From assembly GCA_015956445.1 (NCBI GenBank), contig WIUZ02000018.1, forward strand, positions 434,001-498,000: a DNA stretch of 64,000 bases, written 5' to 3'. Origin of the DNA: Thelephora terrestris (taxonomy: Eukaryota; Basidiomycota; Agaricomycetes; Thelephorales; Thelephoraceae). Both the position numbers and the translations under genes were made by a program. The notes under the pieces are model-generated. The model saw only the letters and a program-made list of their open reading frames with translations, did no database searches and was not told the DNA's origin. Below, in pieces: positions 1 through 47,675 of the stretch. Numbering within the stretch: the first letter of the stretch is position 1; every line of letters begins with the position of its first letter.

Positions 1-1004
1 GGACTCCGCCCGCCACTCCTTTCTATCTCCCGCTAATCACCGTGTATAAACACGGATACTATACGCCATGGTTATACCAGATGAATATGAAAACTATGCT
101 TCTTGCGGACATCTCGTGAAACAGGGGGGAATAAGAATTGACAAGCGGCGACCTGGACTGCAGTGGAAGTCTGGAATCCAGCTTCAAAGTCGGAGCGGGG
201 GGGGGGTGTGTTCTGAACGGTTGTGGCGCTGCTGTTTCAATTCATTGTCGGATCACTGCACTCTTAAGCAAGGTGAACGAGACTTGTTGGGCGGCACGAT
301 TTGGACCCATCACTACGCTGCGCAGAGACCGAACCCCCACGGCTCGTGAGGAAACGTCGAGGCGTGTGATAGGTACCGCGATACTTCTGGTTGAACGACA
401 GCGATTTGAAGCGTCCTGGAGTCAGCTTTTGCGTGGATTGCTAGTGGCCTTGTTCGAGATTGACTCATGGGTGCTGGAGTGAAGCATATTGGGATCCCCG
501 TGCGCGTTGTGATACATAGTGGGGATCATTTCCCGGCCTCTCTTCGGATAATTCACAAGTCGACTGACATCCTGAATGCTGAGCGCCGATGTTGATCAGT
601 CAATTGTCCGTATGCAAGGGCCCACCTGAGATTGCGAATTACCCCTGTCTACGCTCTGATACATATCACCCACCCACACTGAGAGACTTACAACCTGAGT
701 CATGCAGTTATAGCATTCCTCCTGTCCGCACCAAGTGGGGGAATGCATGTAGGGCGGAATGGCGACCTGTGCCCGTTACTGCTAGGCCGAAGTTCACAGG
801 CAGCGCGGTCACGTTTCTTCCGGGATTTCGAGATCGAGTTACGGTTCCCGCGTTTCTTCGCACGACCACTCGTCCGAGTCTACTCGCCACATCGGCAACT
901 CCCAAATCAGCAAATTGCCAATGCTTACGTTATGCAGGAACGCTGATGCCACGTTATATAAGAACCTAGAAGACGTGGGTTGACCGGTACCGCCATCCTC
1001 TACC
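1..1004. other. Left flank and promoter region of DUF4246 copy A
   Basis: No gene is supported here; the short reading frames lack recognisable domains. From about 485 the sequence is a diverged duplicate of 10108-10684 (shared stretch GTGCGCGTTGTGA followed by GGGGATCATTTCCCGG), so the duplicated unit begins near 485. Positions 1-484 have no copy elsewhere in the window. A TATA box precedes the gene. Confidence 0.6.
955..962 (+). promoter_or_regulatory. TATA box of DUF4246 copy A
   Basis: TATATAAG lies 43 bp before the ATG at 1005. The same element sits at nearly the same distance in copies B and C, so the core promoter was duplicated with each gene. Confidence 0.6.
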
Positions 1005-3118
1005 ATGGCGAGAACGAAACAAATTGTCAGACGGGGGGCTCGAGCTGTCAGACGCCCCACGCCTATTCAGCTTCCTAAAGATGGCTTCAACCATCCATTC
1101 CAGGAATCTGAATGGGATGTGGGCCCACGCCAAGGAAAGGAACATCCTAGGACCGTGAGCAATGACCCCTCTTTTCGCACCACAACAAGTCCAAATGTTT
1201 CACCAGATCGTCGAGCTACGGATGTGTGCTCTCTCCAACCGTCTCAGAGAGAAACCTCACTGGTGGGAGAAGATGGAAGATGAGAGTATTGTTGAGAAAT
1301 GGAGAGAGGAAGCTTTGCAACAAGCGGGAGACGATGGCAAGCCGGAGTGGAAATTGACCCCAGGCATGGTATGTTTCGCTTTCCGCCTTAGATTCACCGC
1401 CACCATTCCGAAACTAATATCTCAACTTGAAGGTCAACTACGTACTCGAGGAGCTTCGAGGATACGCAGATTTACGCGATTCAGAAACTGGGATAGAGGC
1501 ACGATTCAGCTTGCGAAGTCACAATTGCTGAACTGATACCGTATGTGATTCCAGGTCGGCCCAGCAGAGCGCGTCTGGAAGTCTGACGAACTCATCCCGA
1601 GTTCCTTGCGGGAGAGATTGCTCGCAGCGGTGGCTCCTCTAGAGAGCGTTCCCGACTCCGAAAAGGACTGGCACCCCGGTTCCGATGGTCTCGTCCTCGA
1701 CCTCGTCCACCCGTCTTTATATCCGATCGTCTATGAGCGCACGATGAGTAAGAACCCAGGTTCTGCTAGCCCCACGGTTGTAGAGGCTCCCGAATTTTGT
1801 GATCCCACCTTCACATCCCAGAAGTTCCAGTGGCTACCCTCCGATTTCTCCGTCGATCCCAACGGGAAAGTCACCCTCGCATCTCCGTACATTAACAACG
1901 CCCACCCAACTCGGCACAAAGAACTTTGCTCTGTCATTCCGGAGATCCTACAACACGCGCTCCCGATGTTCGAACGGGTGTTGTCTGATGCGATTAGGCC
2001 ACTTCTCCCGATGAGAATCGCCACATCCGGTATTCGTGGACTAGGCGATGAGCAAACTGCCGATTGCATCTGGGACGGTGGTATTCCTTGTCCCGGTTCG
2101 TCGAGCGAAGAGGAGTACATGCAGGATTCGCTTGCATGGCTAGACAAGCGCAGTTTCAAGACGCCTGATGCCAGGGAGAACTATGATGGGGATCTAGGGT
2201 TCATGGAAGATCGTATTTCGTTGAAGGGCCGAACGATTCAAGTCATCGTCAAGCTCGCGAACATTATTCTTACCCCTGAAAAGCCTGAATATCCTGGGGG
2301 CAAGTGGCACGTTGAAGGTCTGTATCAACAATTTCCTGTCGTGGAATGCTTCCAGCTTATATTCCTTTTCAAGGTATGATGAACGAGAACATCGTTTCTA
2401 GTTTCATCTATGTGAGTCTTCGCCGTGAGAACCGGTAGTTTTGTGTCTAACACCTTTTCAGTACTACGATTCGGAGAACATCAGCGAGAGTAGACTTGCG
2501 TTGAGGAGGGCAACATCAGAGCCCCATGCCCACCACCAAGATGATGGAAAGTGCATGAGAGTCCTTTATGATGTGGACCGGTAGGCTTCTTGTCTACGTT
2601 TACAAAAGTTGTCCAGTGAGCTGAAGGGAATGCATATCAGGTAATCACCCTTGGTTCAAAATGTCGGCGACGTGGTCACGAAGACGCACAGATGTGTTGC
2701 ATTCCCGAACCTGTATCAACATCAGGTTCAACCATTCCACTTGGAGGATCCCACCAAACCCGGTCACAGAAAAATACTGGTCTTTTTCTTGGTCGATCCG
2801 ACCCAGGTGATTCCTTCTGCCACGAATGTACCACCCCAACAGCGCGAGTGGGTGACCGAGGCCATGCACAGCGCGGATGGAAACTCTGCGCTGGCGAAGC
2901 TCCCTGTCGAGGTCATCACGATGATCTCGGAGGAAACCGATGGGACGATGACTCGTTCGGAGGCGGAAAAATACAGGGAGGAATTGATGGCTGAGAGGAC
3001 TGTATTCGTGAAGGCGAACAATAAGGATTACTTTGGATTTGTCAGTACCCCAATTTGTCTTGCGTTGATCGTTGACTGACCCTTCCATGCGGTGGTCTAG
3101 GAATTCAACATGTGGTAG
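1005..3118 (+). pseudogene. DUF4246 family protein, copy A (in-frame stop in exon 6)
   Basis: Fungal DUF4246 protein of unknown role, with exons at 1005-1154, 1207-1368, 1433-1498, 1555-2373, 2462-2580, 2641 to about 3039 and 3101-3118. Family hallmarks are LREKPHWWEKM, EKDWHPGSDGLVLDLVHPSL, FQWLPSDF, SPYINN, QVIVKLANI and PGGKWHVEGLYQ, then YQHQVQPFHLEDPTKPGHR and the C-terminal EFNMW. Intron 3 (1499-1554) begins with GC instead of GT. The exon 5/6 junction is followed by G-TAA, where copies B and C have G-GAT and G-GAA. The TAA at 2642-2644 would remove the last 140 or so residues, including the second metal-ligand-like histidine. Unless another acceptor is used, this copy is broken. TM-1 follows on the same strand. 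Confidence 0.8.
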
Positions 3119-4030: not shown

Positions 4031-5003
4031 ATGTCCGATTCACTGGAGAAGCCCTGGCCAAATGTTACACATGCGGTGTATTTGGGGGAGAAGGCATATT
4101 TTGTGGGAACCTTTCTTGGCGGAATATTGAACGGTGCGCCAGCTTATCCATCTGTCTTTCCACGTGTATATTGTTTATTTGATGCACCCTCCTAGGGATT
4201 GGCATTGCTCTGTTCTTTCAATGTATGGCTGCTTTGCTCAATCATGAAGATCACAGAACGAAGCCAATCAAGTGGGGACTTGTGGTCCACACTGCGGTTA
4301 TGTTCATGTCCTTGACGACATCTGGCTGGTTATACGCAGACCATCTGATGCTTTCCTACATCGATAATCGGCAATTCCCTGGTGTTGACGACGGCATGCT
4401 CCCTTCTGGACCCTTGGGATACTGTGCCCTCAGTAGTGCCCTCACCCTCGCCGCCATCCTTCTATTTCTCTTGAACCAATTGCTAGCTGATGGGTTCTTG
4501 GTAAGCTTGTGGTACGATTGACTGCCCAGATGTTCAACACAGGCTGCTGCACAGCTCTATCGTTGCTATATCATCTACTCCATGAACTATTGGTTCATCT
4601 TGTTCCCATGTTTACTGTACCTCGCCTCCATGGGTGCGTGTTTAATCCTTTGAACGTTGGCAGCGATACTCTTGGATAACGTCACCGATACAGCAACGGG
4701 TATCACCATCTTATACGACGAGAGCCCGAATGTACGCATTGCCTGGACGAGAACCCTTGACCGAACAATCAGCCCTTCATACAACGCGATTTCCCTTTCG
4801 CTCAATGTCATCCTCACTCTCATGGTTATCACACGACTCGCCCTGCAGAGAAGGAAGAATCAAAATGCTATGGAGGGTTTTGCTGGAGCAAATGGGTTGT
4901 ACAAGTCCATTATCATCATGCTTATTGAGTCTTGTGCTCTTTACGCAACCAGCTTTCTGTTATATACTGTGACGGGGGTTCTCAATCCCACCGCTCAGCA
5001 GAT

Positions 5004-7937
5004 TGTCAGCGTGCTGAATTTTATTCCCTTTTTGAACCATTTTTACACCCAACTTTCGCCCACTTTCCTTACCTATACCCCTTTCTTATCTTAATCATTT
5101 CCTTCATCCCGACCCACACGTCATCAAGGAACACAGACAAGGACACTGATGATATTACACACAGCACGCAGCGAAGACACAAGACTACAAAACCGATGGA
5201 GTTGGATCCGCACGGACTCTATGGACGAGGACCAAGGTGTACAAACCCTAGCCGTCAAGACCTGGTCTGCCAGTACTCCTCAGCACTGGCAACCTCCTCC
5301 TCCGTCCCCTCCGAGGCATTCTCGTCGACTTCCTCGTCGACCATCTCGACGACCCGAGCTTCCTCCAGACGATGAGCGACGGCCAACTGAACCTCGGCGC
5401 GAAGGCGGTTCCTCGCTGAATCGGCCATAGTCTGATCCAGAGTCCTCTGGACTGACCAACCCTCCACTCTCTCGGTCAGTTGAGCCACCAGGCGAACGGC
5501 CTCCGCTGCACGCTGGACCGACAAGAGCGTAAGGTCGGTTAAGCCGTTCACGTCGACGGACTCCACCGGAATCAGTTCGCCACGATCCAAGTGACACTGT
5601 AGCATCGTCGCATCGGAATAGGACGGTGGATTCGATGTCTCCACCCTGGCGGACGACGTTGGGATTACTGGGACGCATACGGTGCGCTGGACGAAGTGCC
5701 CCGCGATAAGGAACCCAACGACGAGCACGGATAGAACGTTGCCCACGCACCGGCGAGATCGACGGAGGCGGAATCGGAACAGCCACCTCGTTCTCCCCCG
5801 CGTACTCCAACTCGGGAGAACTGCTAACCAGATTCACGGCTGTCTCCTCGGACGTCTCGCGGACGACCTCTTCCCCGCCATCTGTGTGCGCTGGTGTACG
5901 GTACGAACTGTCGGAGGCTAAAAAGGATGTCAGTGGACAAAGCCAAATATGTCAACCGACATCCCACCTATGGGAGAAGCCATCCGATCCGGTATCGACT
6001 CGTCCTCGGACTCGTCGCGAACCGCAGCCACCGAACGAGTGCGGCAGTGACACAACCGCTCGCTCATCGATTCGACCCGAGCGCCCAACAATGGCAAAGC
6101 GTCGTCCAACGTATCAACCTAGGAAGTGGCATGAGCTCTCTAGGACAAAGACCAGGAGAAGTCGCACCGACCTTGGTGTCGAGCTCATTCAGAGCCCTTC
6201 GGTGACGGTTGAGCCGTCGGTCGACCTCGATCAGGTCCCGTTGGATAGTGTCATCCCGTTCCTTCAAGGACTCGACCAACCGGTTGTGTTCTTCGCGCAT
6301 CGCTAGCATCTCGCTCTCAAACGTAACACGGAGCGTATCGTTCATCAGGAGCAGCGTTTTCTTCATGTCCAACGCTTCCGAGTACATCCTACGGGCATCA
6401 TCCTTCGCTTCCTTCACTTCACGCTTCAGCCGCTCATTCTACAAGCCTGTCAGTGTTATCCCACAAGCGGGATGCACAGACCGACTCACCGCTTTCTGTT
6501 CTGTCCTCAAGAGGAACCAAAGGCGGTGACCGACGGCTGCTGTATAATGTTGCGAATGAGTCGCCCCTGGCCACCTTCCTTCGCCGTTTCCCAGATCGTA
6601 GATCCCCATCTTCAGGAGACCCCACAACGACGACGCCACCGGAGTCTCCCATGGCATACGCAGCTCGGTGTCAAACGTGACCCCGCGCATAGACTCTTGT
6701 AACTTGTGGTCGATCAAGTTGTGGTACCACAGCTCGTCGTCTATGGTCAAGTAGTTGGGAGGCTTGGCTATCGTCGCCTCCAGTTGTCGGGCATCCACTT
6801 TGGCGGCAACCGCGAAGATCTACGATGCGATGTCAGTTGTTGCCAGCAAACGGCGACACGTGACGTCGCACCTCGCGATAACTGGGGTACACTACGTTGG
6901 CGTTCGGAAGGAAGTAACCCTTGTTCTGCACGGAGCGCGGATCCGCAGACTCGATGGTAGCAGTGCTGTTCTCAGCACGGAAGACACGATCGGAGATCAT
7001 GGGCATAGTGGATGAGTAGTTGGTCGGTGGGATTGTTGACTTGGGAAGAAGGGAGTTTGATGGATCCAATGGCCGGTTCGCACTACGCTTTATTCGACCC
7101 TCGACAGCGCTCGCACCCTATTCGCCATTGGCTCGGCCCATCGTTTCACCGGTCCAGACTCCTCATACATTCGCCCTCGACATTCAAGCCCCACTTGGTC
7201 CTTTGTTGTCCCAATTGGACGAGCTGACGCGTCGTCTTTTCATTGGTTCATCTTCACATGTGATATTATCCTTTGTCATTCCTTTCCCACACGACGTCAT
7301 GACCCTTCCCTCATTCTCTCACGAACCCTGACCCATTAGTCATTCCTTTATCATTTCTATTCTACATCCCGGGCCGCTTACTGTTCCAGCTTACTCTCGG
7401 CCCTTCTTTGCTCCGAGTTATTATTAGATAGGGTTATCTATGTCCCGGCCACTCTCCTATATAAGTACCAGTAGAGTAGCTGAGGACTCCCCATCTTTGA
7501 TATCTCGGGAAGTCCTCTTCTCCTTACAGCATCGGTGTATTTGCTGTAGGCCACTGAAGAGCTTATCGAGTAACTCCTTGAACCGTTCGCTCTCCTCTCT
7601 CACTCAGTCTTGACCCTTAACCGGTGTTTGAAGCGAGCTCGGACACGACATCGAGTTCCGCATTGCTCTTTGGATCAAGTCATCAGTTTGAGGCGCCATC
7701 CTCGGGCTCTTGTATCTGCCCTCAGAAGACGATAGGGATTTACCTGATAGAGGCTCGGCACTCCTGCTGTGAATTCAGACAACCTACCGGAGAACGCTCG
7801 TCCATCGTGTTTTGGACCACGTAGACTTTGGGTGGATATAGGGAAGTCGTTCCCCCTTTGCCCCATTGTTTCTTGTTGGTTGGAGTTGCGACTCACCAAC
7901 AGCACTGGTACCTGAAGGGCAAAGAGTGGCCCTGACA
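5004..7937. mobile_element. 2.9 kb mobile element with TGTCAG...CTGACA ends
   Basis: An insertion inside exon 4 of TM-1. The ends are TGTCAG and CTGACA, a 6 bp inverted terminal match of the TG...CA type typical of LTR elements. The 5 bp duplications CAGAT lie at 4999-5003 and 7938-7942. No reverse transcriptase, integrase or DDE motif was seen, and no long direct repeat was found by eye between the two ends, so the class is unsettled: a degenerate or non-autonomous LTR element, or another 5-bp-TSD element. Its gene is on the minus strand. The right part (7340-7640) looks promoter-like, with CTATATAAGTACC at about 7459. Confidence 0.7.
5255..7006 (-). CDS. Unrecognised coiled-coil protein carried by the 2.9 kb element
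   Basis: A multi-exon minus-strand gene; no known family was recognised. Starting at 7006 (MPMISDRVFRAEN), exon 1 reads NKGYFLPNANVVYPSYRE. It splices (GTGCGA...GTAG) to IFAVAAKVDARQLEATIA and LTIDDELWYHNLIDHKL. A further intron (GTGAGT...GTAG) leads into a long heptad-like coiled coil, NERLKREVKEAKDDARRM to NELDTKV. The 3' half is less certain; reading frames there include a Pro/Arg-rich stretch with the motif PPPSISPVRGQRS. The protein could be a Gag-like or accessory product of the element. Start and first exons are fairly secure, the 3' end is not. Confidence 0.45.
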
Positions 7938-8294
7938 CAGATTGCATTCGTCTTCAAACCTATCCTCGCAGTGACTCAGGTTTGTGCTGTTCTTACGTGC
8001 ATCATTGGAGGGTCGTAGTCTAATCGCCATGATGAATAGTTTATTTCTCCGTTGCTCATCGTGCTACGGGTCGCCAACCGGACCGCGGTGATAAGTGACT
8101 CTTTTGGCTCCAGCAACCTTGGTTCGATTTGTTTCATGGATCATGAGCATTCAACGAGCGATGACGGAATCGTTCCTGATGGGAGCGGCACCGTAGGTTC
8201 AACAGAAATGGGCGAGGAGGTTCCTGGTGAAGTAGGGGTTGTGGTCGAGAATTCCATCGAGGAAGTTCCGTTCAAAGGGTTTTCGCACGATTGA

Positions 8295-9740
8295 TACTCC
8301 TCCATCGACCATCATTCAACTTCCTCACTTCCACTGTTTAAACTGTACAATCGTGTTGAGCGTTTTCAACATTCCCTAGCTCCGATTTAGTTCTCATTTG
8401 TACATAAATTGTATTTACTGTCCCAATCCGACCAACTCGGTTGGTCATTGTCATCAAGGGGTCCGCCCGCCAGATTTTTGGGCTCTTGTCATCAGTCATC
8501 AGGGGGGCCGCCGCTATGTTCGACTCGTGTCATCAATTTTCAGCGGTCGCCCACCACGGGCGCTAGAACTTGAAAAAAAAAATCTTAAGGCGAACGAAAA
8601 TTGTATATCTAGAGCTCTTGAAGGAAAATTTCTACGTGCTGGTGGCATTACATCTCACCCAACCCAATAGAAAGTGGGGGGTCCCAAGTTGTATTGTCTT
8701 AAGACCTGCACTGAACTAATGGGAGTCTTCGCAAACAAGGCCACAATTTCATCCCTGATCTTCATGAGGATTCATTGCTTCCCAGTACTGGCGCAGACTG
8801 GCGCCATTGCTGTATTGACACCTCTCTGCAAAGTGGGGACTTAATTGCATTGTCTCACTCTGCCGATGCTGAGTTGTAACGGATAGAAGGGATATGCTAG
8901 TTCGCGAGGCCAGCTTGAGGGCAAAGAGGTCTGAAATATAACAGGATTTGGAAGTTAAACGATGCCAAGTACCAGAAGTCACCGTCACCAGGCAAGGCGG
9001 GGCCTGGTTCAATGCTGCCCAGCCGCGTGTTCATGCTGAGGGCCGCCGCCTGGGTCCGGGTGTCATTGTCATCCAGACACCCGCCGCTGTCACTGACCCT
9101 GATATTTTTTGTCATCAAAAATCCCTTCGCCGACTTGGTCGGATTGGGACAGTACTGTTCATCAATCCTTCGCGAAGCGGTCAGTCAAATCGAGAGGTTC
9201 CAGGGTGAGAGTGAGGGAGACGAAGCAATCGTGATCAGGTAAATATTCGTGGGGTGGCTGGACGTCCAAGGATGCAACACAAATCCGCAGCATGCTCATA
9301 GGAGGTTCGCGCAAATGGGGGGGGGATATTCATTGTTGCAAGTGGCATGGTGATGCAGCTCTGCCTAATACGGTGCGAATTGAATGAATTGGGACAGCAT
9401 TCTGTTAAAGCTGGTTAGTTCAATCGAGATCGACATTCAGCTCGCAGGGTTCAGTTCTGAGAAATCTGAAGGCTTCACTCTTAAGACACAGCCCGGGTGT
9501 GATGCAAAATCGTGGAAAGTTAGATGCAGCCTCGAAGGGTGGCCTATAGGAGCACGCGTGAGAAGACTCTTCGTTGGAGATGACAAATCGAGCAGCAACC
9601 CTAACGACATCCAGCGACTGCCAACAATGTATGACCCTGAGCCAAGTTGTGGTCCGGTCACAAAGTCTACCCTCGAAGTTCTGATTGCTTTCCAATCCGT
9701 TGGGATTGTAACCACCGTGCTTTCACCAGTTGGCACCATC
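8295..9740. other. Spacer after TM-1
   Basis: No gene supported. Positions 9180-9260 match 16327-16410 (TCAAATCGAGAGGTTCCAGG followed by GTGAG), a tail sequence shared by units A and B and, weakly, by the region near 22780. The open frame at 9384-9758 has no recognisable domain and runs into the inverted repeat segment. Confidence 0.5.
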
Positions 9741-10100
9741 CACAACACCAAAATCTGACACCGCCAGATTTATTCTTGTTCAGGGCTTCGCTGCCAACGA
9801 TCCCGGTACTGTTTCGCTTATCTCGTATTGGTCGCAAAACATTAGATAGGTTGGATTCCGAGCAAACCGTTCTTCTACATCAGTAATAATACTTTCCACG
9901 ATTCATTGACCCCCGCTTGCATAGCGCACACCTACATCGACAGTTTCAATGTTCACTGTGAAACGCAATCGTGAAAACGTGCCTGAGCGGATAGAAGTTG
10001 GAAACCTACCACATGTTGGATTCCTAAATCACCGCATGGAAGGGTCAGTCAATAGTCAACGCAAGACCAATGCGAGTACGGACAAATCCAAAGCAATCTT
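9740..10100 (-). repeat. Inverted fragment of the DUF4246 3' end and downstream spacer
   Basis: Read on the minus strand, 10100 to about 9740 reproduces the end of DUF4246 exon 6 (GACTGACCCTTCCATGCGGT), the last exon with AACATGTGGTAG, and the following spacer seen at about 3040-3420 and 20280-20640. It is an orphan, inverted partial copy at the junction of units A and B. Confidence 0.75.
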
Positions 10101-10626
10101 TAAGCACATTAGGATTCCCGTGCGCGTTGTGACAGTGGGGATCATTTCCCGGCCGCACTTCGGATATACGGGGTAGGAGACTATTCACGACATCCTGAAT
10201 GCTGAGCACCGATGTTGGTCAGTAAATTGTCCACATGCGGGGCCCACCTGAGATCACGAATTACCCCTGTCTACGCTCTGATACATATCACCCACCCACA
10301 GTGACTCGAGGGTCAACCAGACTGAGAGACTAACCTGAGTCATGCAGTTACGGCATTCCCCCCGTCCGCACCAAATGGGCACGATAGCGGAAGACTCTAG
10401 CCTCGAGTCCCCAAGCCCATGGCGCAATGGTGGCCTGCGCCCGTTACTGTTAGGCGGAAGTTCACAGGCAGCGGTTTCTTCCGGAACTTCGAGATCGAGT
10501 TACGGTTGCCGCATTTCTTCGCACGACCACTCGTCCGAGTCGACTCGCCACATCGGCAACTCCCAAATCAGCAAAATTGCCAATGCTTACGTTATGAAAC
10601 GTGATGCAGGAACAGTTATGCCGCGT

Positions 10627-10684: not shown

Positions 10685-12755
10685 ATGACGAGTACGACTC
10701 GAGCCGCCAGAGGCCCCTCGCGTCTTCAGCTTCCTGAAGATGGCTTCAACCATCCATTCCAGGAATCTGAATGTGATGTGGGCCCACATCAAGGAAAGGA
10801 ACATCCTAGGACCGTGAGCAATGACCCCTCCTTCCGCACCACAACAAGTCCGAATGTTTCACCAGATCGTCGAGCTACGGATGTGTGCTCTTTCCAACCG
10901 TATTAGGGAGAAACCTGACTGGTGGGAGAAGATGGAAGATGAGAGTATTGTTGAGAAGTGGAGAGAAGAAGCTTTGTAACAAGCGGGAGAAGATGCCAAT
11001 CCGGAGTGGAAATTGACCCCAGGCATGGTATGTTTCGCTTTCCGCCTTAGATTCACTGTCACCGTTCCGAAAATAACACCTCAAGGTCAAATATGTACTT
11101 GAGGAGCTTTGAGGATACGCAGATTTACGTGATTCACAAACTGGGATAGAGGCACGGTTCTGCTCAGTGCGACGTCACAATTGCTGAACTGATATCGTGT
11201 GTGATTCCAGGTCGGCCCAGCAGAGCGCGTCTGGAAGTCCGACAAACTCATCCCGAGTTCCTTGCGGGAGAGATTGCTCGCGGCGGTGGCTCCTCTAGAG
11301 AGCGTTCCCGACTCCGAAAAGGACTGGCACCCTGGTTCCGATGGTCTCGTCCTTGACCTCGTCCACCCCTCTTTATATCCGATCGTCTATGAGCGCACGA
11401 TGAGTAAGAACCCAGGGTCTGCTAGCCCCACGGTCGTAGAGGCTCCCGAATTCTGTGATCCCACGTTCACATCCCAGACGTTCCAGTGGCTACCCTCCGA
11501 TTTCTCCGTCGATCCCAACGGGAAAGTCACCCTCGCCTCTCCGTACATCAACAACGTCCACCCAACTCGGCACAAAGACATCTGCTCTGTCATTCCTGAG
11601 ATCCTACAACACGCGCTCCCGATGTTCGAGCGGGTTTTGTCCGATGCGATCAGGCCACTTCTCCCGATGAGAATCGCCACGTCCGGTCTTTATGGAGAAG
11701 AGACTGCTGATTGCATCTGGGATGGTGTTATTCCTTGTCCCGGTTCGTTGAACGAAGAGGATCAGGAAGCATGGCTGGACAAGCATCCTTTCAAGACGCC
11801 TGATGCCAGAGAGCACTATGATGGAGATCTAGGGGTCATGGAAGATCGTATCTCTTTGAGGGACCGAACAATTCAAGTCATCGTCAAGCTCGCGAACATT
11901 GTTCTCACCCCTGAAAAGCCTGAATATCCTGGGGGCAAGTGGCACGTTGAAGGTCTGTATCAACAATTTCCTGCCGTGGAATGCTTCCAGCTTATATTCC
12001 TTTTTAAGGTATGATGAACGAGAACATCGTTTCTAGTTTCATCTATGTGAGTCTTCGCTGTGAGAACCGGTAGTCTTGTGTCCAACAGTTTTTCAGTACT
12101 ACGATTCGGAGAACATCAGCGAGAGTAGACTTGCGTTCAGGAGGGCAACATCAGAGCCACATGCCCACGAGCAAGACGATTCAAAATGCATGAGGGTCCT
12201 TTACGATATGGACCGGTAGGTTCCGCGTGTCTACGCTTACCAAAGTCGTCCGGTGAGCTGAAGGGAATGCATATTAGGGATCTACCCTTGGTTCAAAATA
12301 TCGGTGACGTGGTCACAAAGGCGCACAGATGTGTTGCATTCCCGAACCTGTACCAACATCAGGTTCAACCATTCCGCTTGGAGGATCCCACCAAACCCGG
12401 TCACAGAAAAATCCTGGTCTTTTTCTTGGTCGATCCGACCCAGACGATTCCTTCTGCCACGAATGTACCACCCCAACAGCGCGAGTGGGTTACCGAGGCC
12501 ATGCACAGCGCGGATGGAAATTCTGCGCTTGCGAAGCTCCCTGTCGAGGTCCTCACGATGATCTCGGAGGCGAACGATGGAACGATGACTCGTTCGGAGG
12601 CAGAAAAATACAGGGAGGAATTAATGGCTGAGAGGACTGTATTCGTGGAGGCGAACGATCAAGATTACTTTGGATTTGTCCGTACTCGCATTTGTCTTGC
12701 GTTGACCACTGACTGACCCTTCCATGCGGTGGCTTAGGAATTCAACATGTGGTAG
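10685..12755 (+). pseudogene. DUF4246 family protein, copy B (stops in exons 2 and 3)
   Basis: Closest to copy A and with the same seven-exon layout. Exon 1 starts at 10685 (MTSTTRAARG). In exon 2, the codon CAA of copy A (CAG in copy C) is TAA at 10977-10979. In exon 3, the CGA codon of copy A (CAG in copy C) is TGA, giving CTTTGAGGATAC near 11106. Relative to copy A both are C-to-T changes. Exon 4 (about 11211-12008) and the later exons stay open, with PGGKWHVEGLYQ, YQHQVQPFRLEDPTKPGHR and a terminal EFNMW ending at 12755, so decay is recent. Exon 4 lacks a few residues before the CIWDG motif compared with copies A and C. The GC donor of intron 3 is conserved. TM-2 follows. Confidence 0.82.
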
Positions 12756-13419
12756 GTTTCAAAATTTTACCCGCTCAGGCACATTTTCATGATCGCGTTT
12801 CACAGTGAGCATTGAAACTGTCGATGGAGGTGTGCGCCGTGCAAGCGGGGGTCAATGAATCCGTCGCTTGCTGATGGCATCCGAACTATACCCTGTGCAT
12901 TGAGCATCGGAGCCTCGAATCTTCCGACACTGGTCTCTGGGGTTGAAACTGATTTCCAACGGAAAACCCGCCTTCAACACAATTGTGGACCCAGTTTTTA
13001 TTGAACCAAGCCTACTCTGTTGCCATGCCACTTGCCAGAATCTACATTCCTAACACAAATAATTAATATTGATCCCACAATTTGTCGCTGAAAACTCTAG
13101 TGACCGGAGAGCAGCCAGGAGAAGCAAGTCCTCCTTCAAACTCTCCCAAACCAAAACTACTCAGCAGTGCTAGCAGGCGAGAACGAAAAGGTCAGGTGAA
13201 GATATCCCAATGAAGGGGAAACCTGCATCACTGGGGGAGAATAAGGGCTCCCTGGATCTTGCCATCACCGTTATAAATTCATCATGCATCATGTATCGTC
13301 TTTCAATCGGACTGAGGTGTTTATAACCAGTTTTTCCTTCGTATCCATCCAGCTCCTCAGACCTTTTCTTTGGCCTCCCTTTGGCCTCATCTATTGGGAT
13401 CCTGTCTCCAGTCTCAAGC
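12756..13419. other. Spacer between DUF4246 copy B and TM-2
   Basis: Noncoding and shorter than the A and C spacers. The first 110 bases match the A and C spacers, a middle part has been lost or replaced, and homology returns before TM-2 with GAGGTGTTTATAACC near 13316. Confidence 0.5.
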
Positions 13420-16180
13420 ATGTCAGATTCACTGGAGAAGCCCTGGTCAGATAGTCCTAATGCCCCACAAATCCCGTATGCGGTGTATTTTCCGGAGAAG
13501 GCAAACTTCGTAGGAGGGTTTCTTGGCGCAATATTTTACGGTGCGCCAACTTACCCATCTCTCTGTCCATGTGTACATTTTTCGATACACTGTCCTAGGA
13601 ATCGGCATTGCTCTGTTCTTCCGATGTGCGGACGCTTTGCTCAATCGTGAAAATCACAGAACGAAGGCCATCAAGTGGGGACTTGTGGTCCACACTGCGG
13701 TTATGTTCATGTGCTTGACGGCATCTGGCTGGTTATACGCAGACAGTCTAATGCTTTCCTACATCGATAAGCGGCAATTCCCTGGTGTCGACGGCGCGCT
13801 CCAGCCTGGACCCTTGGGATACTTCATGCGCTGTCGGACATGAGAACAACTATGTCATTATTTATGATAATTCACCACAACAAGATTAGATTAGATAAGA
13901 TAACAGTCTTATCAGATAAGATTAGATTAGATAAGGACAAGAAACTCATGGAAAGTTACAGAAAGTTACAGAAAGTTCAGGAACATCCTAGAATACGCCG
14001 GAACATCCTGGAACTTGCCGGAATGTTCTAGAAGGTGACGGAACGTCACACCCCATGTGACACCGGTCACGCTTTTGTGACATTTTGTCACGCTTGTGAC
14101 GTCTGTCACTCCATTAATTACCATAGAATACAGTAGAAGGCCATAGAACGTTCTAGAATAATCTCACATGAAAAAGTATATAAAGAACTCACCCCCAGTT
14201 CTAAGGAAAGGCAACTCACCCATAACCTTTTACCCCTCTCTCTCTCTCTACCCAACAGCTGTTGGCCACTGGCCAGTAGTTGCCCCCTCTATCCCCTCTT
14301 CTCTCTATAACCCACCCTCTTTTACTCTACCCCTTTTCACCAAGACCTCTACTTTGCCTCACCTCCTTAGGCCTGAGTGGTTGAGTGATTTTCAGTAATC
14401 ACATACCATTTTGAGCCCCACCTCTGTGTGAATAAGTTCTAAGTTTGGACTTCTGAATAAGCTTAGTACACTTGACTCTGTGACGTAGCAATATCCTTAT
14501 CTCTGTTAGTACTGAAGGCAGACCCTTCAGGCAGAGAGTATTCTACCTCAGACTAGTGACTGACTAGGTGACAGACAGATTTAGTAAAAGTACCACATTG
14601 GTATCCGACATATCAGTATCTCAGACATATCAAGAAGTTTATCTTATCAAGACAGGTTCTCAAGTTTCAGCAGTATCAAGTTATCAGACGTATCTCAGCA
14701 GCATTTGGACGCACCTCAGCAGTATATTGACAGATCATCAAAACCACTCAGACATATCAGCACAGCCTCAGAAGTATTAGCACAGCCACCCCCCTTAACA
14801 CAGCCACAGCACAGCCACTTACACAGCCACAGTGCACAGCATTCTACACAGCCTTCTTCACAGCCTCATACACAGCCTCGATCGTATCAGTTTCACACAT
14901 CATTATCTCCATTCCCGATCATCAGCGTAGATCAGGAACTCCATTCTTATCAAGATCAGCAACCCCCTTTACATTATTACTAGGTGTTTGGACCAGGGAA
15001 TATACGTGCAGTAGTGATAAAGGTTACTGAACCCCTCTGAACACATCTGAAGGACCTACAACCTCCTTCAGCGAACTCATCAGGACAAGGAGCCGGAAAG
15101 TACGAAACCCCGCCCACCCTGTGGAGTTGATAGTCGGGATAACTGACTTCTCAACCAGCCTACTTAGTTGTTAACGCTTAGCTTCTAAGTAAACCAAGAA
15201 GGACTAGTAAGAGTTCTTATAGACCTCTTCACTACAACCCTAGCGAACTCGACAGCGCGCTAATGCGATTAACGCCGTCGCCGACCTTATGTTTCTCTTA
15301 AACCAATTGCTAGCCGATGGATTCTTGGTAAGCCTGTGCCACACTTGAGTGCCTAGATGTTCAACGTAGGCTGCCCACAGCTCTATCGTTGCTATACTAT
15401 CTACTCCATGAATTGTCGGTTCATGGTCTTCCCATGTTTATTGTACCTCGCCGCTATTGGTGTGTGTTCAATTCTTTGAAAATTGGCAGCGATACTCTTG
15501 GACAACGTCACTGACTCACAGATACAGCAACGGGTGTCACCACCACATACAGCCAGGACCCGGATGTAAGCACTATCTACGCGGAGACCCTTTTGCGAAC
15601 AACCGGTGCTTCATACGCCGCAATTTCCCTTGCGCTCAATGTCATCCTCACCCTCATGATTATCACACGACTCGTCCTGCATATCAGAAACATTCGAAAT
15701 ACCACGGGGGGCTCAACTGAAGCTGGTGGATTGTACAAGCCCATCATCAGCATGCTTGTCGAGTCTTGTGCGCTTTACGCAACCACCTATCTGGTATATA
15801 TCGTGACGATGGAAATCGATTTGTACCCTTTCTTCGCCTTCAGACCTATCCTCTCAGTGACTCAGGTTTGTGCTGTTCTCATGCGTAATATTGGAGGGTT
15901 GTAGTCTAATCGCCATGATGAACAGTTTATCGCTCCGCTGCTCATCGTGCTACGGGTAGCCAACCGGACCGCGGTGACAAGTGACTCTTTCAGCTCCAGC
16001 AACCTTGGTTCAATTCGTTTCAGGGATCAAGAGCATTCGACGAGCGATGACGGAACAGTTCCTGATGGGAGCGGCCACGTGGGTTCAACAGAGATGAGTG
16101 CGGAGGTTCTTGGTGAAGTAGGGGTTGTGGCCGAGAATACCATCGAAAAAGTTCCGTTAGAAGGGTTTTCGCAAAATTGA
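13420..16180 (+). pseudogene. Seven-transmembrane family protein TM-2, split by a solo-LTR-like element
   Basis: Starts MSDSLEKPWSDSPNAPQ at 13420. Exon 2 carries GIGIALFFRCADALL, SGWLYADSLMLSYIDKRQ and FPGVDGALQPGPLGY. At 13831 it is interrupted by a 1423 bp element (13832-15254) flanked by GCGC. Coding resumes as ANAINAVADLMFLLNQ and LLADGFL, then exon 3, exon 4 (ESCALYATTYLVY, FRPILSVTQ) and the last exon (LLIVLRVANRTAVTSDSF), with the stop at 16178-16180. With the element and one GCGC removed, the junction has the same length as TM-3, so the gene was open before insertion. As it stands the frame ends in the element. Confidence 0.8.
13832..15254. mobile_element. Solo-LTR-like element (1.42 kb) in TM-2
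   Basis: The ends are TGTCGGACATGAG and CGAACTCGACA, a TGTCG/CGACA inverted pair. The 4 bp target duplication GCGC lies at 13828-13831 and 15255-15258. It contains no coding region, which fits a lone LTR left by LTR-LTR recombination. Internal features include a TATA-like AGTATATAAAGAAC near 14175, tandem AGAAAGTTAC units at about 13951-13980, and a CACAGCC-rich tract at about 14782-14880. An intact element with flanking LTRs was not seen in the window, so the solo-LTR class is inferred from ends and length. Confidence 0.65.
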
Positions 16181-16948
16181 TACCCCTCCACCGACCATCA
16201 TTCAACTTCCCCACTTCCACTGTTGAAACCGTAAAATCGTGTTGAGCCACTTCGACATTGACTCGCTCCGATTCAGTTTCCATTTGTACATAAAATTGTA
16301 TTTATTTTTGCATCAGTCCTTCGCGAAGAGGTCAGTCAAATCGAGAGGTTCCAGGGTGAGAGTGAGGAGATGGAGCAATCGTGAGCAGGTAAATATTCGC
16401 GGGGTGGCTGAACGTCCAGCACAAATCCACAGCGTGCTCGTAGGGGGTTCGTGCAAGGGGGCACTCGATCACAACACCAAAGTGGGAAGCCCCGGGGCTA
16501 GGTGGGTCGCCCCCCTAGGTACCGTCCCCTCGCAAACCGTTCCTCCTCCGCCTCTGAATTCGAGGCTGGATCCCAGCCTACCCCGGGGCGTTCACCGTGG
16601 TCCACGAAATCAAACGAGTGAGGATTTCGGTGGATTGACTTCTCAAAATCATCCTATAGTTGCCAGCTTGCTGTGCAACAGGGAGAGGACTCAAGTCTGT
16701 TATACTTGGTACACGACTTGGACTCATCCCCGTACCAATCCACGGCTGCGGAGGAACGACCAAGCCATCGTTGTACAAAAGGGTAGCGCAGCAAACTCCA
16801 CTATTTTTTTCTCACGACCGGTCATCATGTAGTCAACCCGCCACGTCGCAACCCCCGAATCAGTGAAACTGACATCGCCAACACTAATCAGTAGCGCCAA
16901 CCCCACGCTGTATAAGGATGCGCCTGCGAAAGACACGGGTTGACCACT
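16181..16948. other. Spacer after TM-2, holding a 72 bp shuttled repeat
   Basis: No gene supported. It contains the unit-tail sequence (16327-16410) and a 72 bp repeat (16508-16579) shared with 27524-27595. From about 16830 a decayed DUF4246 promoter begins, with TGTATAAGGA near 16910. Confidence 0.5.
16508..16579 (+). repeat. 72 bp dispersed repeat, copy 1
   Basis: Identical except for one base to the reverse complement of 27524-27595. It begins CGCCCCCCTAGGTACCG and ends in the palindrome GGCTGGATCCCAGCC. CCCCGGGGC is present on both sides (near 16491 and 16582). Function unknown. Confidence 0.7.
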
Positions 16949-17690
16949 AACCCCTGCCGTGGGGGGATCGACCTTCTGGCAAAGTACCTCGATCGTTCAG
17001 GGGCCCTCCTCCACTTCAGCTTTCAAGAGATGGCTTCACCCATCCATTCGAGGAATTTGCTTTGGTGCAGGAACATCCGAGGACTGTGAGTGGCAATCCT
17101 TTTCCCGTGTCACACCAGGTTCCCATTTCCGACTTGTTTTCGGTCAGATCGTCGAGCTACCGATGTGCCCTCCCCTAATTACTTCGAGCATGGTATATCC
17201 TGCCTCCCAGCTTAGAGCCGCTGCCATCGCCCAGAATCCAACGTCTCAAGATGGACTCGAAAGGTTTCATGGTTGCGCAGATTGCGTGATTTGGGGACCA
17301 GGATCAAGGCAAAACCTAGCTTGTAGAGTCACAATCCTTGAACCGATACCATAAGCTGTTCCAGGTCGGTCCAGTGGAGCGTATCCGGAAGTCTGACGAG
17401 CTCAACCAGAGTTCCATATAGGACCTGCCTCCCAAACAGTTCTGGTGGCCCCAGAATTTGCATCCGGTGATTTCAAGTTCAAACGTTCACATCTGATAAG
17501 TGCCAGTGGCTGCCGTCGTCCCTCTCTATGATGGCGAAAATCCATCTCCGAACTCGGCACCAATATCTTTTTCTATCATTCCCGGATGTGACAATACGCG
17601 CTCCCGATATTCCAGAGGGTTCTATGACGCCTTCTCCCGAACCTATCCACAAGTCGGCTGTCATCCTGGACATTTTTGCTTCGTGAGTTG
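16949..17690 (+). pseudogene. Decayed DUF4246 relic between copies B and C
   Basis: Fragments align to the paralogs in order: a start region with MGGST, exon 1 residues ending at a GTGAGT donor near 17087, a collapsed exon 2 (CGAGCTACCGATGTGCCC), an exon 3/4 junction (GGTCGGTCCAGTGGAGCG near 17366) and scattered exon 4 pieces (CAGTGGCTGCC near 17502, ACGCGCTCCCGATATTC near 17594). Stops and deletions are numerous. It marks an older duplication. Confidence 0.65.
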
Positions 17691-18236: not shown

Positions 18237-20361
18237 ATGGGAAAATCGACCCTACCTAGAAGATCACCTCGGTTCTACAAAGGCCCCCCGCCTCTTCAGC
18301 TTCCAAAAGACGGTTTCAAACACCCATTCCAAGAATCAGATATAGACCCGGGACCTGAGCAAGGGAAGGAACATCCCAAGACTGTGAGTGTGAATCCTCT
18401 TCCTGCACCCCCAAAGTTCCAATTTACGATACGATTTTGATCAGATTGTCGAGCTACGGATGTGTGCTCTCTCCAATCGTATCAGAGAAAAACCTAACTG
18501 GTGGGAGAAGATGCAAGACGATGCGATCGTCGAGAAGTGGAGAGATGAAGCTTTGCAGCAAACAGGAGACGATGACAACCCGGAGTGGGAATTGACTCCA
18601 GGCATGGTATATATCGCCTCCCGTCTTAGGTTCGCTAGCACCATTCTGAATCTAACGTCTTAAGGTCAACTACGTACTCGAGGAGCTTCAGGGGTACGCG
18701 GATTTGCGAGATCCAGAAACTGGGATTGAGGCACGATTCAGTTTGCGACATCACAACTACTGAGCTGATACCATGCGCGATTCTAGGTTGGTCCTGCAGA
18801 ACGTATCTGGAAGTCCGACGGACTTATCCCAGTTTCCTTGCGAGAGAAACTGCTTGCAGCCGTGGCTCCCCTAGAAGGTGTTCCCGACTCCGAAAAGGAC
18901 TGGCACCCTGGTTCCGACGGCCTTGTTTTCGACCTTGTCCATCCGTCTTTATATTCAGTCGTCTACGGGCGCACAATGAGAAAAGGTCCAAGATCTGGAC
19001 TGAAGGCCCTGGTAGCTCCGAGGTTTGAATCTGGTGATTTAAAGTTCACATCCGAGAGGTTCCAGTGGCTGCCCTCCGATTTCCTCATCGACGGTGATGG
19101 GAAAGCCACCCTCGCATCTCCGTACATCAACAACGTCCATCCAACTCAGCATAAAGAACTTTGCTCTGTTATTCCAGAAATCTTACAACGCGCACTCCCA
19201 ATGTTCGAACGCGTATTGTCTGACACGATCAGGCAACTTCTCCCGATGAGAATCGTCACATCCGGTGGTCGCGGATTTAACAACGAGGAGACCGCTGATT
19301 GCATCTGGGAGGACGGGATGCCATATCCCGGTTCTTCGAGCGAAGAGGAATGCGAAGAGGATCAGGAAGCATGGCTGGATAAGCACAGCTTCAAGACGCC
19401 TGATGCCAGGGAGCACTATGATGGAGATCTAAAGGTCATGGGGGAACGGATCTCGCTGAAAGGCCGAACGCTGCAAGTCATTGTCAAGCTCGCGAACGTT
19501 GTTCTTACCCCGGAGAAGCCCGATTATCCTGGGGGGAAATGGCACGTTGAAGGTTTGCACCAACGGTTATTTGTGATGGATCACTTTCAGCTAAAGTTGT
19601 ATTTCAAGGTATGCGAAACGAACAAATCGTCTCTAGCTTCATATACGTAAGTCTTCGCCGTGGCTGTGGGAGCTGGCAGCTTTATGTCTAGCGGTGTTTC
19701 AGTATTATGATTCGGAGAACATCAGCGCGAGTATACTTGCTTTCAGGAGGGCGACATCAGAGCCCTATAACCACGAACAAGATGATGAAAAGTGCATGAG
19801 GGTCCTCTACGATATAGAGCGGTAGGTTCCGCGTGTCTACGTTTACCAAAGTCGTCTGGCGAGCTGAAGGGAACGTATATTAGGGAATTGCCCTTGGTTC
19901 AAGATGTCGGCGACGTGGTCACGAAGACGCATAGATGTGTCGCATTCCCGAACCTGTATCAACATCAGGTTCAACCATTCCACTTGGAGGATCCCACCAA
20001 ACCCGGTCACAGAAAAATCCTGGTCTTTTTCTTGGTCGATCCGACCCAGACGATTCCTTCCGCCACGAATGTACCACCCCAACAGCGCGAATGGGTGACA
20101 GAGGCCATACACAGCGCGGATGCAAATTCGACGCTTGCGAAGCTCCCTGTCGAGATCCTCACGATGATCTCGAAGAAGATCGATGGGACGATGACTTGTT
20201 TGGAGGCGGAGGAATACAGGGAGGAATTGATGGCTGAGAGGACTGTGTTCGTGGAGGAGAACGATAAAGGTTACTTTGGATATGTCCGTACCCGCACTTC
20301 ACTTGTGTTGACCATTGACTGACCCTTCCATACGGTGGTCTAGGAATTCAACATGTGGTAG
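18237..20361 (+). CDS. DUF4246 family protein, copy C (intact)
   Basis: The only fully open copy. Exons: 18237-18383, 18445-18606, 18665-18730, 18787-19608, 19703-19821, 19884-20283, 20344-20361, giving 577 residues, normal for the family. The N-terminal part (KPNWWEKMQDDAIVEKW) is followed by EKDWHPGSDGLVFDLVHPSL, FQWLPSDFLID, SPYINNVHP, LQVIVKLANVVLTPEK and GGKWHVEGLHQ. The C-terminal part has HRCVAFPNLYQHQVQPFHL, KPGHRKILVFFLVDPTQ and VPPQQREWV, ending EFNMW. The HxE, later H, then R pattern resembles a 2-oxoglutarate/Fe(II) oxygenase core; this is inference and no substrate is known. Intron 3 (18731-18786) uses a GC donor. No signal peptide or TM segment is seen, so a soluble protein is likely. 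TM-3 lies 0.9 kb downstream. Confidence 0.88.
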
Positions 20362-29063: not shown

Positions 29064-30355
29064 ATGTCTAACTCCTCTGAAAAACTCTGGTCAGATAACC
29101 CCAACGCTCCACGGATCCCGCACTGGGTGTATTTTGCGGAAAAGGCAACTTTTGCTGGAGTGTTCCTCGGCGCGGTTCTGTACGGTACGCCACCCTATCC
29201 GCCTCTGCATCGATACTCATTTTTTCTATTCGGTACGCCATCCTAGGGATCGTCATCATTCTCTTCTTCCAATGCATGAGGGCTTTGCTTGATTACGCCA
29301 ACCGTAAAACAAAGGCCGCCAAATGGGGACTCCGGATCCACACTGCGTTTATGTTCATGAGTGTGACGATATGCGGCGCGTTATACCTCGATTATCAACG
29401 GATCTCCTACATCGATAACCGAGAATTCCCCAGTGTCGACGGCGTGTTACCTCCTGGACCCTTTGGGTACACTGTACTTACCCAGTCTAGTGCGATCAAC
29501 GTCGCTACATATTCTCTATTCCTCGTGAACCAATGGCTAGCCGATGGCTTCTTGGTAAGCTCTGTATCATGCTCGGTCGCCCGGGTGTCCAACATAGATC
29601 GCTCCTCAGCTTTACCGTTGTTACATCATCTACTTCACGGATTTTTGGGTCATCATCTTCCCGTTTTTAATGTACCTTGCCTCCATCGGTACGTGACCAA
29701 GCCTCTCCGCCAGGGGACAGCAACACTCTGAGCTGACGTCCCCTATACAGCGATGGGAATCACCCTCGTGTACAACCAGGCCTCAGATCCAGACACTGTC
29801 TACATGACTGTCTTCGCTACGAAATCCATGCTCTCATATCTAATTATTTCTATCTCACTCAATGTCCTCCTCACCCTCATGATTATCACACAAGTCCTCC
29901 TGCACCGGAAGAGGATTCAAACTGTGATGGGGGCTTCGGCCGAAACCAGCGGATTGTACAAATCCATAATTAGCATGCTTGTCGAGTCTTGCGCCCTTTA
30001 CGTAGGCAGCTTTCTGGTATATGCTGTGACGCGGAGCCTCAATGACAGCAACCAACTCATCGCAGAGGTCTTCAAACCGATCCTCGCAGAGACTCAGGTT
30101 CGTGCTCTCCTGTGGCGTAATTTTGGAACGCTTGAATTGAATCAGTATGAAATACAGGTCATTGCTCCGTTCCTCACCATTCTACGAATCGCCAACCGGA
30201 CCGCGGTGACGAGCGACTCGATCACCTCATGCAGTGGTTCGATCCGTTTCGCGAGTGAAGAGCAGTCGACAAGCCATGACGAAACCATTCATGATGGGGA
30301 CCCAGTGAGTTCAGGGATGAGTGGGGAGATTTTTGGTGGGCTATGCGCTGTGGTT
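29064..30355 (+). pseudogene. Seven-transmembrane family protein TM-6, 5' part (tail cut by the 15 kb transposon)
   Basis: Starts MSNSSEKLWSDNPNAPR. Exons follow the family pattern: GIVIILFFQCMRALLD, FPSVDGVLPPGP (Ser instead of Gly in the usual FPGVDG), LADGFL, AMGITLVYNQAS, ESCALYVGSFLVY, KPILAETQ and VIAPFLTILRIANRTAV. At 30355 the tail coding sequence meets the transposon terminal repeat. The remaining 48 bp of the exon lie at 45440-45487. The present frame runs 66 bp into the element and stops at 30421, so a protein with a complete membrane core and an altered tail could still be made. Confidence 0.82.
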
Positions 30356-30391
30356 CATCAGCAAAATCGCCTCAGCGTCTACTCGGGTACC

Positions 30392-30417
30392 GTCGGGTAC
30401 CATCGGGTACCAGCTTT
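30392..30417. repeat. Subterminal GGGTACC repeats, left end
   Basis: Three GGGTACC units in a row (CGGGTACCGTCGGGTACC, then ATCGGGTACC) just inside the left terminal repeat. Two more occur as an overlapping pair at the right end near 45391-45405, next to GCGTACC variants. They are candidate transposase-binding sites by analogy with CACTA elements. Confidence 0.5.
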
Positions 30418-30708
30418 GTGAAACCGGTTCGTAGGATATCGCGTACTTCAACAGGTTTTGGTGCCCAACATCTCCCGTTTCCCACGAACCGCACTAGTTT
30501 CGTTAGTAAGCGCGATTGCGTAAAAATTCTGAAGGCCCCTAAGCGATTTTGATGGGTGACATAAAAGCGATCACATCATCACAACCAAGCGCGTGAGATT
30601 CGTGAAAACAATCCACGGCTGGTTCCCATTTTGCAGAAAACCCATCGCCACAAATTGGGAAGAGCAAAAAGTTGTAGATTGTTTGGGAGGGAGGGTACAA
30701 AGTAGTAA

Positions 30709-35231: not shown

Positions 35232-35233
35232 CC

Positions 35234-37861: not shown

Positions 37862-37868
37862 AAGGAGA
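37862..37868 (+). other. Polypurine tract before LTR 2
   Basis: AAGGAGA directly abuts TGACATG, the LTR start. The same arrangement occurs at 41553-41559. The upstream sequence GAAGTCCCAAGGAG is present twice within about 70 bp in each unit. Confidence 0.6.
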
Positions 37869-38923: not shown

Positions 38924-39013
38924 CCTGGAACCCACGCCGTGTTAGTCTCCCTGCCTCCCTATTAGCTCCCCAACCCTCGCGACTTTCCCCCCTTCCCTCT
39001 AAAGCCATCTACC

Positions 39014-45779: not shown

Positions 45780-45985
45780 CAGAGGCTTGCTATGCATTCA
45801 GGAGAATGAATCCCTTCCCGCGCGCATGTTGTACGAATCCTTGAAACCCCCACCAGTAGGTCCTGCTGTCCTATACGGGGAGGAATTTGAACCCTGGCAG
45901 GACCGTATTGTACAGGGGAACGATAAAGAGTACTTTTATTTGGTTCGTACCCTCGTTGGTCTCGTGTTGATTTCGTGACCGCAGT
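45780..45985 (+). pseudogene. DUF4246 relic beyond the transposon
   Basis: A fragment of the end of exon 6: GAGGAATTTGAACC, then GGGAACGATAAAGAGTAC and the donor-region TTCGTACCCTCGTTGGTCTC, parallel to GAGAACGATAAAGGTTAC and GTCCGTACCCGC in copy C. Nothing else of the gene remains nearby. Positions 45488-45779 and 45986-46300 hold no supportable gene. Confidence 0.55.
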
Positions 45986-46379: not shown

Positions 46380-46888
46380 GGTGAGGATCCGTAGCGTCGA
46401 GTTACGCAGCCTGATTCAAAGGTGGAAAGGCCTCCCAAAAAAGCCAAGCCTCAAGACAGCTCTCTCCTGTAAGTAAGCATTTCTTAGCAGGCAGAATGAC
46501 GCACCTAACCCGGTTGGTTGCAATTCAGGCGTGGTTGGCTACATCCCGACAGTCCGGCCGGCGGTGTACCAACTGCCACGCCTCGCAACGGGATCCACCG
46601 AACCGTTGCCAGAGAGCTCGAAGAGAGCCAGGAATGAGCGGATGAGGAGAGACGCGGAGCGAAGGCTGTACAGGGAGCTGAGTCGGTACTACCAACTGGG
46701 CGGCAACTCTGGGGAGAAGGTGTGGACGCGTCTGCCTTTGCTGATGGAAGGTAAGCATTAATCCAACCACTCATCACATGAACAACATTCCACAAACGAC
46801 ATTCCGCTAACTTGCATTCCTCTCAGTCCTACAAAATCTGAAGGTCCGCCATCCTCCGACAGGTCTTGCCAACGCGCCAAATCCTTGA
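46380..46888 (+). CDS. Possible basic helix-loop-helix-like protein (partial model)
   Basis: Two or three exons can be read. An exon ending RWKGLPKKPSLKTALS splices (GTAAGT...TTCAG) to VVGYIPTVRPAVYQLPRL. The segment SSKRARNERMRRDAERRLY then RELSRYYQL looks like a basic region plus helix 1. After a short loop, KVWTRLPLLME continues across an intron (GTAAGC...CTCAG) into VLQNLK, a possible helix 2, and the frame ends at 46886-46888 after ANAPNP. The 5' end is not found. The bHLH call is by pattern only, and the gene may be a fragment. Confidence 0.35.
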
Positions 46889-47675
46889 GCTCCGGCGCAG
46901 ACGGTACATAGCAGAAGTGAGGACGTTGTTTAGTTTATCTCACCCTGTACTTCTAGAGCTCGATCAATGAACTCCCCGGTCTGATCATATCGTGTGCTGG
47001 ATTGACCTAAGAGAACGCGGGAACTATACGGCGACGCAGCCTCCCAGAATACCTGCAACTGGGTCTGAATGGCACCCCCTCGGTTTGCATCAGGCCCAGC
47101 GGACAAACATTGAATGGCGGATACGCAAATCTAGTAGACTTCGACAGCGATCGCGATGCAATTGAAGCCATCCACGACACTGCGGGTCACGCCAACACCT
47201 GTCCAAAGACATAAGCAGGCAGAAACCAATCGTACTGGTCGCAGAGGTGGTAGAGGGTGAAATCTGGAGGCAAAATTCCCATGGCGAAGTGAAAGAGATG
47301 ATTACCGGCGTGGGAAACGGTAAATTTCCCTGAACGAATGGAACAGTAGGAATCGGCGTTCACCGAGATTGAGAATGAACTGTTCTCTCCGCTCGCGATA
47401 CTGAGGAGCTGTTCGCAGGCAGCGCTGTGGCAAACTTTGCCCTTCATGTGGCGTTTGGGAGTTCCTCCGGCCGATTCCCGCAGAGACTCAGGTTTGTGCC
47501 TGCTCTGACGTGCAATCCCGGAGCGCTTCCATACGAACTTGAAGACGAAACATAAGCCTACCAACGGTATCGTGATGAGGACATTAGAGAATCGACGGAG
47601 GTTGTAACCGAATAAACCAAATCCATGCCCTACTCGCCTACAATGCTACTGGACCATCGGGCACGATGACGACCC
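46889..47675. other. Intergenic region with a TM-gene relic
   Basis: No complete gene. At 47478-47530 the stretch CGCAGAGACTCAGGTTTGTG followed by GACGTGCAATCCCGGAGCGC resembles the exon 4/intron 4 boundary of TM-6, a trace of a further TM copy. Confidence 0.5.

Follow-up and report, generated by a model that had tools for sequence, protein, structure and literature searches.

Joint duplication of a DUF4246 gene and an orphan seven-transmembrane gene in Thelephora terrestris is probably explained by local segmental copying of neighbours

Genes of two unrelated families, one encoding proteins with the domain of unknown function DUF4246 and the other encoding proteins with seven transmembrane segments (7-TM; single copies are called DUF and TM below), follow each other repeatedly in a 64,000-nucleotide stretch of the basidiomycete Thelephora terrestris (contig WIUZ02000018.1, here C10; the window is C10:434001-498000, and coordinates are window positions unless prefixed C10). 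The locus raises the question of whether genes that were duplicated together several times also act together, as a reading of the sequence alone (the sequence-only reading) had proposed. Our analysis suggests, with more confidence than doubt, that neighbours were co-copied by local segmental duplication and that functional coupling is not needed to account for the array. Spliced gene models were hand-built from splice sites common to the copies, and stops and frames were called on the assumption that all copies share the splicing of DUF3 and TM3. Tests outside the window covered one 40.6 Mb genome of 60 contigs, a pattern scan of prokaryote genomes, a pattern scan of viral contigs and one plasmid search.

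The DUF4246/7-TM array was confirmed. It contains three full-length DUF4246 copies and six 7-TM copies, all on the plus strand, plus relics of both families (Table 1), and the counts given by the sequence-only reading (three DUF4246 copies with at least three relics, six 7-TM copies with one relic) held, an inverted DUF4246 fragment being added to them. Four full-length DUF-TM units are present, U1, U2 and U3 in the window and an inverted fourth, U0, at C10:386-391 kb, about 45 kb to the left of the array. In a self-comparison of C10:374-508 kb, U0 was 87% identical to U1 over 4.6 kb, and DUF, spacer and TM aligned continuously in U1, U3 and the inverted U0; a single alignment of 4255 columns (79%) links 843-4986 with 18063-22234 across all three parts. 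Joint duplication, as had been proposed, is therefore established, far above chance, and the idea that each unit recruited the pair independently was rejected in view of the continuous spacer homology in U0, U1 and U3. The spacer and both promoters are common to these three units, so that the proposal that both had been duplicated with the genes applies to them; it fails for most of the U2 spacer, which is not homologous to the others. DUF stop and TM start are 913 bp apart in U1, 665 bp in U2 and 909 bp in U3. In 250 bp steps across the DUF gene, DUF2 is 84-96% identical to U0/U1, and the TM of U2 is 76-92% identical to them. Given its unlike spacer and the lower identity of its TM, the U2 junction was probably remade by recombination or by insertion/deletion, and this junction alone may be of separate origin.

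The alternation of the two families on one strand extends up to 22.6 kb and not beyond, where TM4-TM6 are consecutive and a DUF relic precedes only TM6; immediately upstream of TM4 and TM5 no DUF4246 sequence could be seen. The rightmost relics of DUF and TM keep the order of the full units, are separated by about 1.5 kb and may represent a further, nearly erased unit. Both genes are intact in U3 and both are broken in U1 and U2, while U0 combines a DUF0 with several frameshifts and an open TM0. The earlier picture of one intact DUF4246 gene beside an intact 7-TM gene stands as far as DUF3, the only intact DUF4246 gene in the window, is concerned, but TM3, TM4, TM5 and TM6 are all open across five exons. 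A 32-base insertion in exon 4 of TM1 was dismissed as it is located at the transposon edge. Intron 3 (18731-18786 in DUF3) has GC-AG ends in DUF0, DUF1, DUF2, DUF3 and the copy at C10:658 kb. Scattered fragments derived from the same DUF4246 3' end occur at C10:376.6 kb and C10:395.6 kb (window -57.4 and -38.4 kb) and at 45873-45970; two 3'-end fragments sit at a 596 bp repeat (91% identical), and these pieces were perhaps captured by a mobile element.

Table 1. Positions of array genes, relics and inserted elements in the window.
Feature	Position	Strand	Details
DUF1, DUF4246 copy	1005..3118	+	8 exons by analogy with DUF3; one in-frame stop, exon 7
TM1, 7-TM copy split by 2.9 kb transposon	4031..8294	+	
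High-copy transposon in TM1	5020..7940	.	full-length copies 91-95% identical
Inverted fragment of DUF4246 3' end	9730..10102	-	
DUF2, DUF4246 copy	10685..12755	+	two in-frame stops, exons 2 and 3
Non-homologous part of DUF2-TM2 spacer	12861..13225	+	from unit comparison
TM2, 7-TM copy split by 1.4 kb transposon	13420..16180	+	
High-copy transposon in TM2	13835..15250	.	ends TGTCG...CGACA
DUF4246 relic, 5' part	16924..17620	+	
DUF3, intact DUF4246 gene	18237..20361	+	8 exons, 571 aa
TM3, intact 7-TM gene	21270..22596	+	5 exons, 363 aa
TM4, intact 7-TM gene	23419..24664	+	337 aa
TM5, intact 7-TM gene	26187..27511	+	363 aa
DUF4246 relic upstream of TM6	27825..28402	+	
TM6, intact 7-TM gene	29064..30421	+	372 aa
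Tandem LTR-type element	34176-42614		three LTR-like copies about 1.05 kb, two internal parts about 2.6 kb
DUF4246 relic, 3' part, about 98 bp	45873..45970	+	
TM relic, exon 4/intron 4 region	47452..47528	+	matches 38-66 bp, best E about 1e-5

If the two genes functioned as a pair, their adjacency might be looked for at other loci. Genome-wide, the Pfam model PF14033 gave 28 exon matches, grouped as 13 gene places at seven loci, namely the C10 array with U0, C10:658 kb, C10:691 kb (partial), C19, C23, C5 and C2 (fragment). A match to TM exon 2 lies within 10 kb at one of the seven, the C10 array with U0; the remaining six have their nearest one at least 57.7 kb off or none on the contig, and tblastn of 20-28 kb around each DUF4246 locus found TM sequence only in the window, at C10:386 kb and at C10:421 kb (E 1e-3). 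Viewed from the other side, all 114 candidates for the TM exon-2 query were scored and gave 108 matches, a total to which fragments contribute, as do five rows on C29 and C42 repeating rows of C12. Only six of these, located without exception at the array or the inverted unit, are within 10 kb of DUF4246, and the other 102 are not. At 20 kb linkage the matches form 48 groups, the largest with 13 members on C23 and 12 on C12 (fragments included), showing that TM multiplies in tandem without DUF4246; conversely, DUF4246 occurs in tandem without TM on C23 (three copies) and C5 (two). The share of the genome close to a TM exon-2 match is 1.4% for a distance of 3 kb and 3.3% for 10 kb, and at least one adjacent locus among seven is therefore expected with a probability of 0.09 (3 kb) to 0.21 (10 kb), assuming independent loci and uniform placement. 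The adjacency does not recur at independent loci of this genome; its confinement to one locus is, as far as this genome goes, half of what the sequence-only reading had named as speaking against the pair. The adjacencies within the array are one juxtaposition that was copied, and therefore do not amount to repeated evidence of shared function; the step from repeated joint duplication to a pair that acts together does not follow, and the sole support for a functional link is that the adjacency persists.

A DUF4246 gene that stands free of any TM partner is found on the same contig. The stretch C10:650-670 kb (loci L036 and L037) is a broken duplicate, about 20 kb long and with deletions, of window -17.5 to +3.5 kb, and its DUF4246 copy at C10:658 kb (DUF658) is open over its whole length. 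Homology to the array stops between DUF and TM; a copy of the TM1-type transposon starts 1.3 kb past this end, and no TM sequence was recognised between the two. The TM found at C10:421 kb in the original is missing from the duplicate except for its first exon. The dN/dS (ratio of nonsynonymous to synonymous divergence) of DUF658 against DUF3 was 0.20 and 0.24 in two alignments. DUF4246 has thus stayed open at C10:658 kb without a TM partner.

Silent divergence separates the two genes of the only intact pair in the window. Between U3 and the other units, synonymous divergence (dS) is 0.52-0.57 for DUF (95% intervals within 0.42-0.71) and 0.26 for TM (95% intervals within 0.18-0.35), with non-overlapping bootstrap intervals, so that at silent sites the divergence of DUF3 is twice that of TM3. 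From these values, either the genes of U3 would differ in history or TM3 would have been renewed by gene conversion. DUF3 is itself a mosaic, being 96% identical to the C10:658 kb copy over 19063-19312 and 75% identical just upstream.

The DUF4246 assignment is secure, since spliced DUF3 matches both PF14033 (E 7.9e-119; 397.8 bits vs a cut-off of 26.7) and PF21666 (DUF4246_N; E 4.7e-15) above their curated cut-offs, and beyond copy number nothing different from these Pfam families was seen. The suggestion that the protein is oxygenase-like gained support from a putative Fe-binding HxE...H motif (H378-x-E380...H460 in DUF3), invariant in four aligned fungal proteins and present in six Streptomyces DUF4246 proteins too, the exception being one copy on C5 (L046) with R in place of the second H; of the basic residues after the second H that might bind 2-oxoglutarate, K477 is invariant in the four fungal proteins and R476 is not. 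Structure models were made from intron-free Streptomyces DUF4246 proteins, and their fold matches to 2-oxoglutarate/Fe(II) oxygenases come from weak, low-confidence models. Foldseek with the full DUF4246 model returned no hit at E 0.001, and a sequence search of the PDB gave a single hit for DUF3 at E 0.85, taken as chance, and none for the A3 profile. Compared with the 2-oxoglutarate/Fe(II) oxygenases HrmJ and BelL (PDB 9dqq and 8jms), to which identity is 11-17% in alignments from models that were both of low confidence, DUF4246 has E as the acidic ligand and an additional N-terminal part. Taking motif and predicted fold together, DUF4246 is probably a 2-oxoglutarate/Fe(II) oxygenase. No paper on DUF4246 function was found in the open-access literature.

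Full-length, intron-free DUF4246 homologues were also observed in Streptomyces (L049-L054) and Embleya (plasmid records H1-H3). The six Streptomyces loci, a minimum since the prokaryote scan used two short peptide patterns only, encode proteins 42-45% identical to the fungal protein, and transfer between kingdoms is possible. Under a rough open reading frame (ORF) filter these loci had no neighbour in common, and no 7-TM product is annotated in the two annotated plasmid neighbourhoods. In viral contigs, 42 candidate stretches yielded no DUF4246 relative.

The TM gene appears, on sequence grounds, to belong to a very large family of orphan 7-TM proteins, about a hundred of them in this one fungus. 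A Kyte-Doolittle scan found seven hydrophobic segments in TM0 and TM4 and six in TM3, TM5 and TM6. TM3 matched no Pfam family at E 0.1 and no PDB sequence; Pfam matches at E 5 (Cortexin and PIG-P for TM4, 7tm_7 for TM5) were far below cut-off and were not used. DUF6533, which includes Snowball/SNB1 (PMC10949477), and DUF6534, described as G protein-coupled receptor candidates (PMC12842992), are likewise basidiomycete 7-TM families without clear function. Unlike their members, however, TM3, TM4 and TM5 match neither model, the last two not even at E 5, and on visual comparison the genome's 3 DUF6534 and 43 DUF6533 matches are all clear of the TM exon-2 matches.

The explanation that we prefer, local copying of neighbours, would begin with a DUF4246 gene landing upstream of a gene of the 7-TM family, at a distance of about 0.9 kb, in a transposon-rich stretch of C10, a juxtaposition that may have been accidental and would require no functional coupling. 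Local segmental duplication and unequal crossing-over would then have copied the segment, mostly with both genes, leaving four full-length units, one of them inverted about 45 kb away, whose genes may later have met separate fates through transposon insertion, nonsense mutation, frameshift, gene conversion and single-gene copying. Tandem segmental duplication with birth-and-death evolution is a known mode, and the array likewise has repeated units, mosaic copies, pseudogenes and transposon insertions; it departs from an ordinary tandem duplication in that its unit carries two unrelated genes, and is otherwise ordinary. Several observations weigh against this explanation. Among U0, U1 and U2 the dS of DUF (0.16-0.18) and that of TM (0.16-0.24) do not differ beyond error, which is what joint duplication would give. 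One pair order was kept through four full units, and perhaps also in two decayed ones (the DUF relic with TM6, and the relics at 45.9 and 47.5 kb). The loss of both partners in U1 and U2 would fit joint loss too. The dN/dS of DUF is 0.16-0.37 among U0, U1, U2 and U658 and 0.16-0.33 between the now-broken DUF0, DUF1 and DUF2; such low values indicate that these three were constrained until recently, and the TM-adjoining DUF copies appear from them to have been functional for much of their history. The first-exon TM remnant, about 7 kb from DUF658 and detected at E 6.5e-4 in a smaller search, indicates that this locus once had TM sequence, and the chance figure above is tied to its assumptions.

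A functional pair kept by selection, in which a soluble oxygenase produces, alters or degrades the ligand of a 7-TM receptor or channel, or else acts on the receptor itself by modifying it, would draw on the persistence of the adjacency in one order, on the one intact pair in the array and on a DUF4246 protein that is predicted to be oxygenase-like and is under purifying selection. It is nevertheless unlikely in view of the six of seven DUF4246 loci that lack the adjacency, the open DUF658 without a TM partner, the open TM0 beside a dead DUF, TM4-TM6 without a full DUF, the unequal dS inside the intact U3 pair, and the bacterial and plasmid neighbourhoods described above. Its more specific form, a two-gene perception module in which an orphan 7-TM receptor and its own 2-oxoglutarate oxygenase, making or tuning the ligand, were amplified as a cassette for divergence of specificity, is quite improbable. 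Amplification of TM might instead have been selected, as birth-and-death turnover of a receptor-like family in which DUF4246 was carried along and decayed after each round. We regard this as conceivable though rather doubtful: the locus has more intact TM (TM0, TM3-TM6) than DUF (DUF3) genes, TM is a large family that forms clusters at other places as well, and pairwise dN/dS is higher for TM (0.40-0.77) than for DUF (0.16-0.38), but transposons interrupt two of the window's six TM copies and the pairwise ratios stay below 1, with no sign of positive selection over the whole gene. As the region is multi-copy and transposon-rich, and as contigs C29 and C42 resemble alternative haplotypes of C12 (five TM rows repeat C12 rows with equal scores), units collapsed or falsely repeated in the assembly were also considered; homologous unit parts, however, diverge by about 3-35% in 250 bp steps, and the units carry different insertions and lesions, making such an artefact extremely improbable.

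The locus is rich in transposons. The 2.9 kb transposon in TM1 has at least 49 matches genome-wide (40 of 294 candidates scored), and the 1.4 kb transposon in TM2 at least 40, up to 99% identical (40 of 160 candidates scored). The tandem at 34-42 kb was rejected as a part of the array, being an LTR-type (long terminal repeat) element whose copies are 99.9% identical, whose LTR-like part is scattered genome-wide and whose internal part holds a 736-aa ORF without a Pfam match; a Plavaka transposase ORF was also present. A 74 bp element occurs at 16507-16580 and, in inverse orientation and 99% alike, at 27523-27596; related sequences, 65-71 bp long, occur on C19 and at C10:666 kb, and it is probably a small dispersed repeat.

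Taken together, the array cautions that repeated co-duplication at one locus is a single event seen many times and does not amount to repeated evidence that the genes share a function. Two by-products are an enzyme class that can be tested for DUF4246, a Pfam family of unknown function whose intron-free homologues from Streptomyces would suit expression, and the recognition of an orphan 7-TM family that numbers about a hundred in a single fungus.

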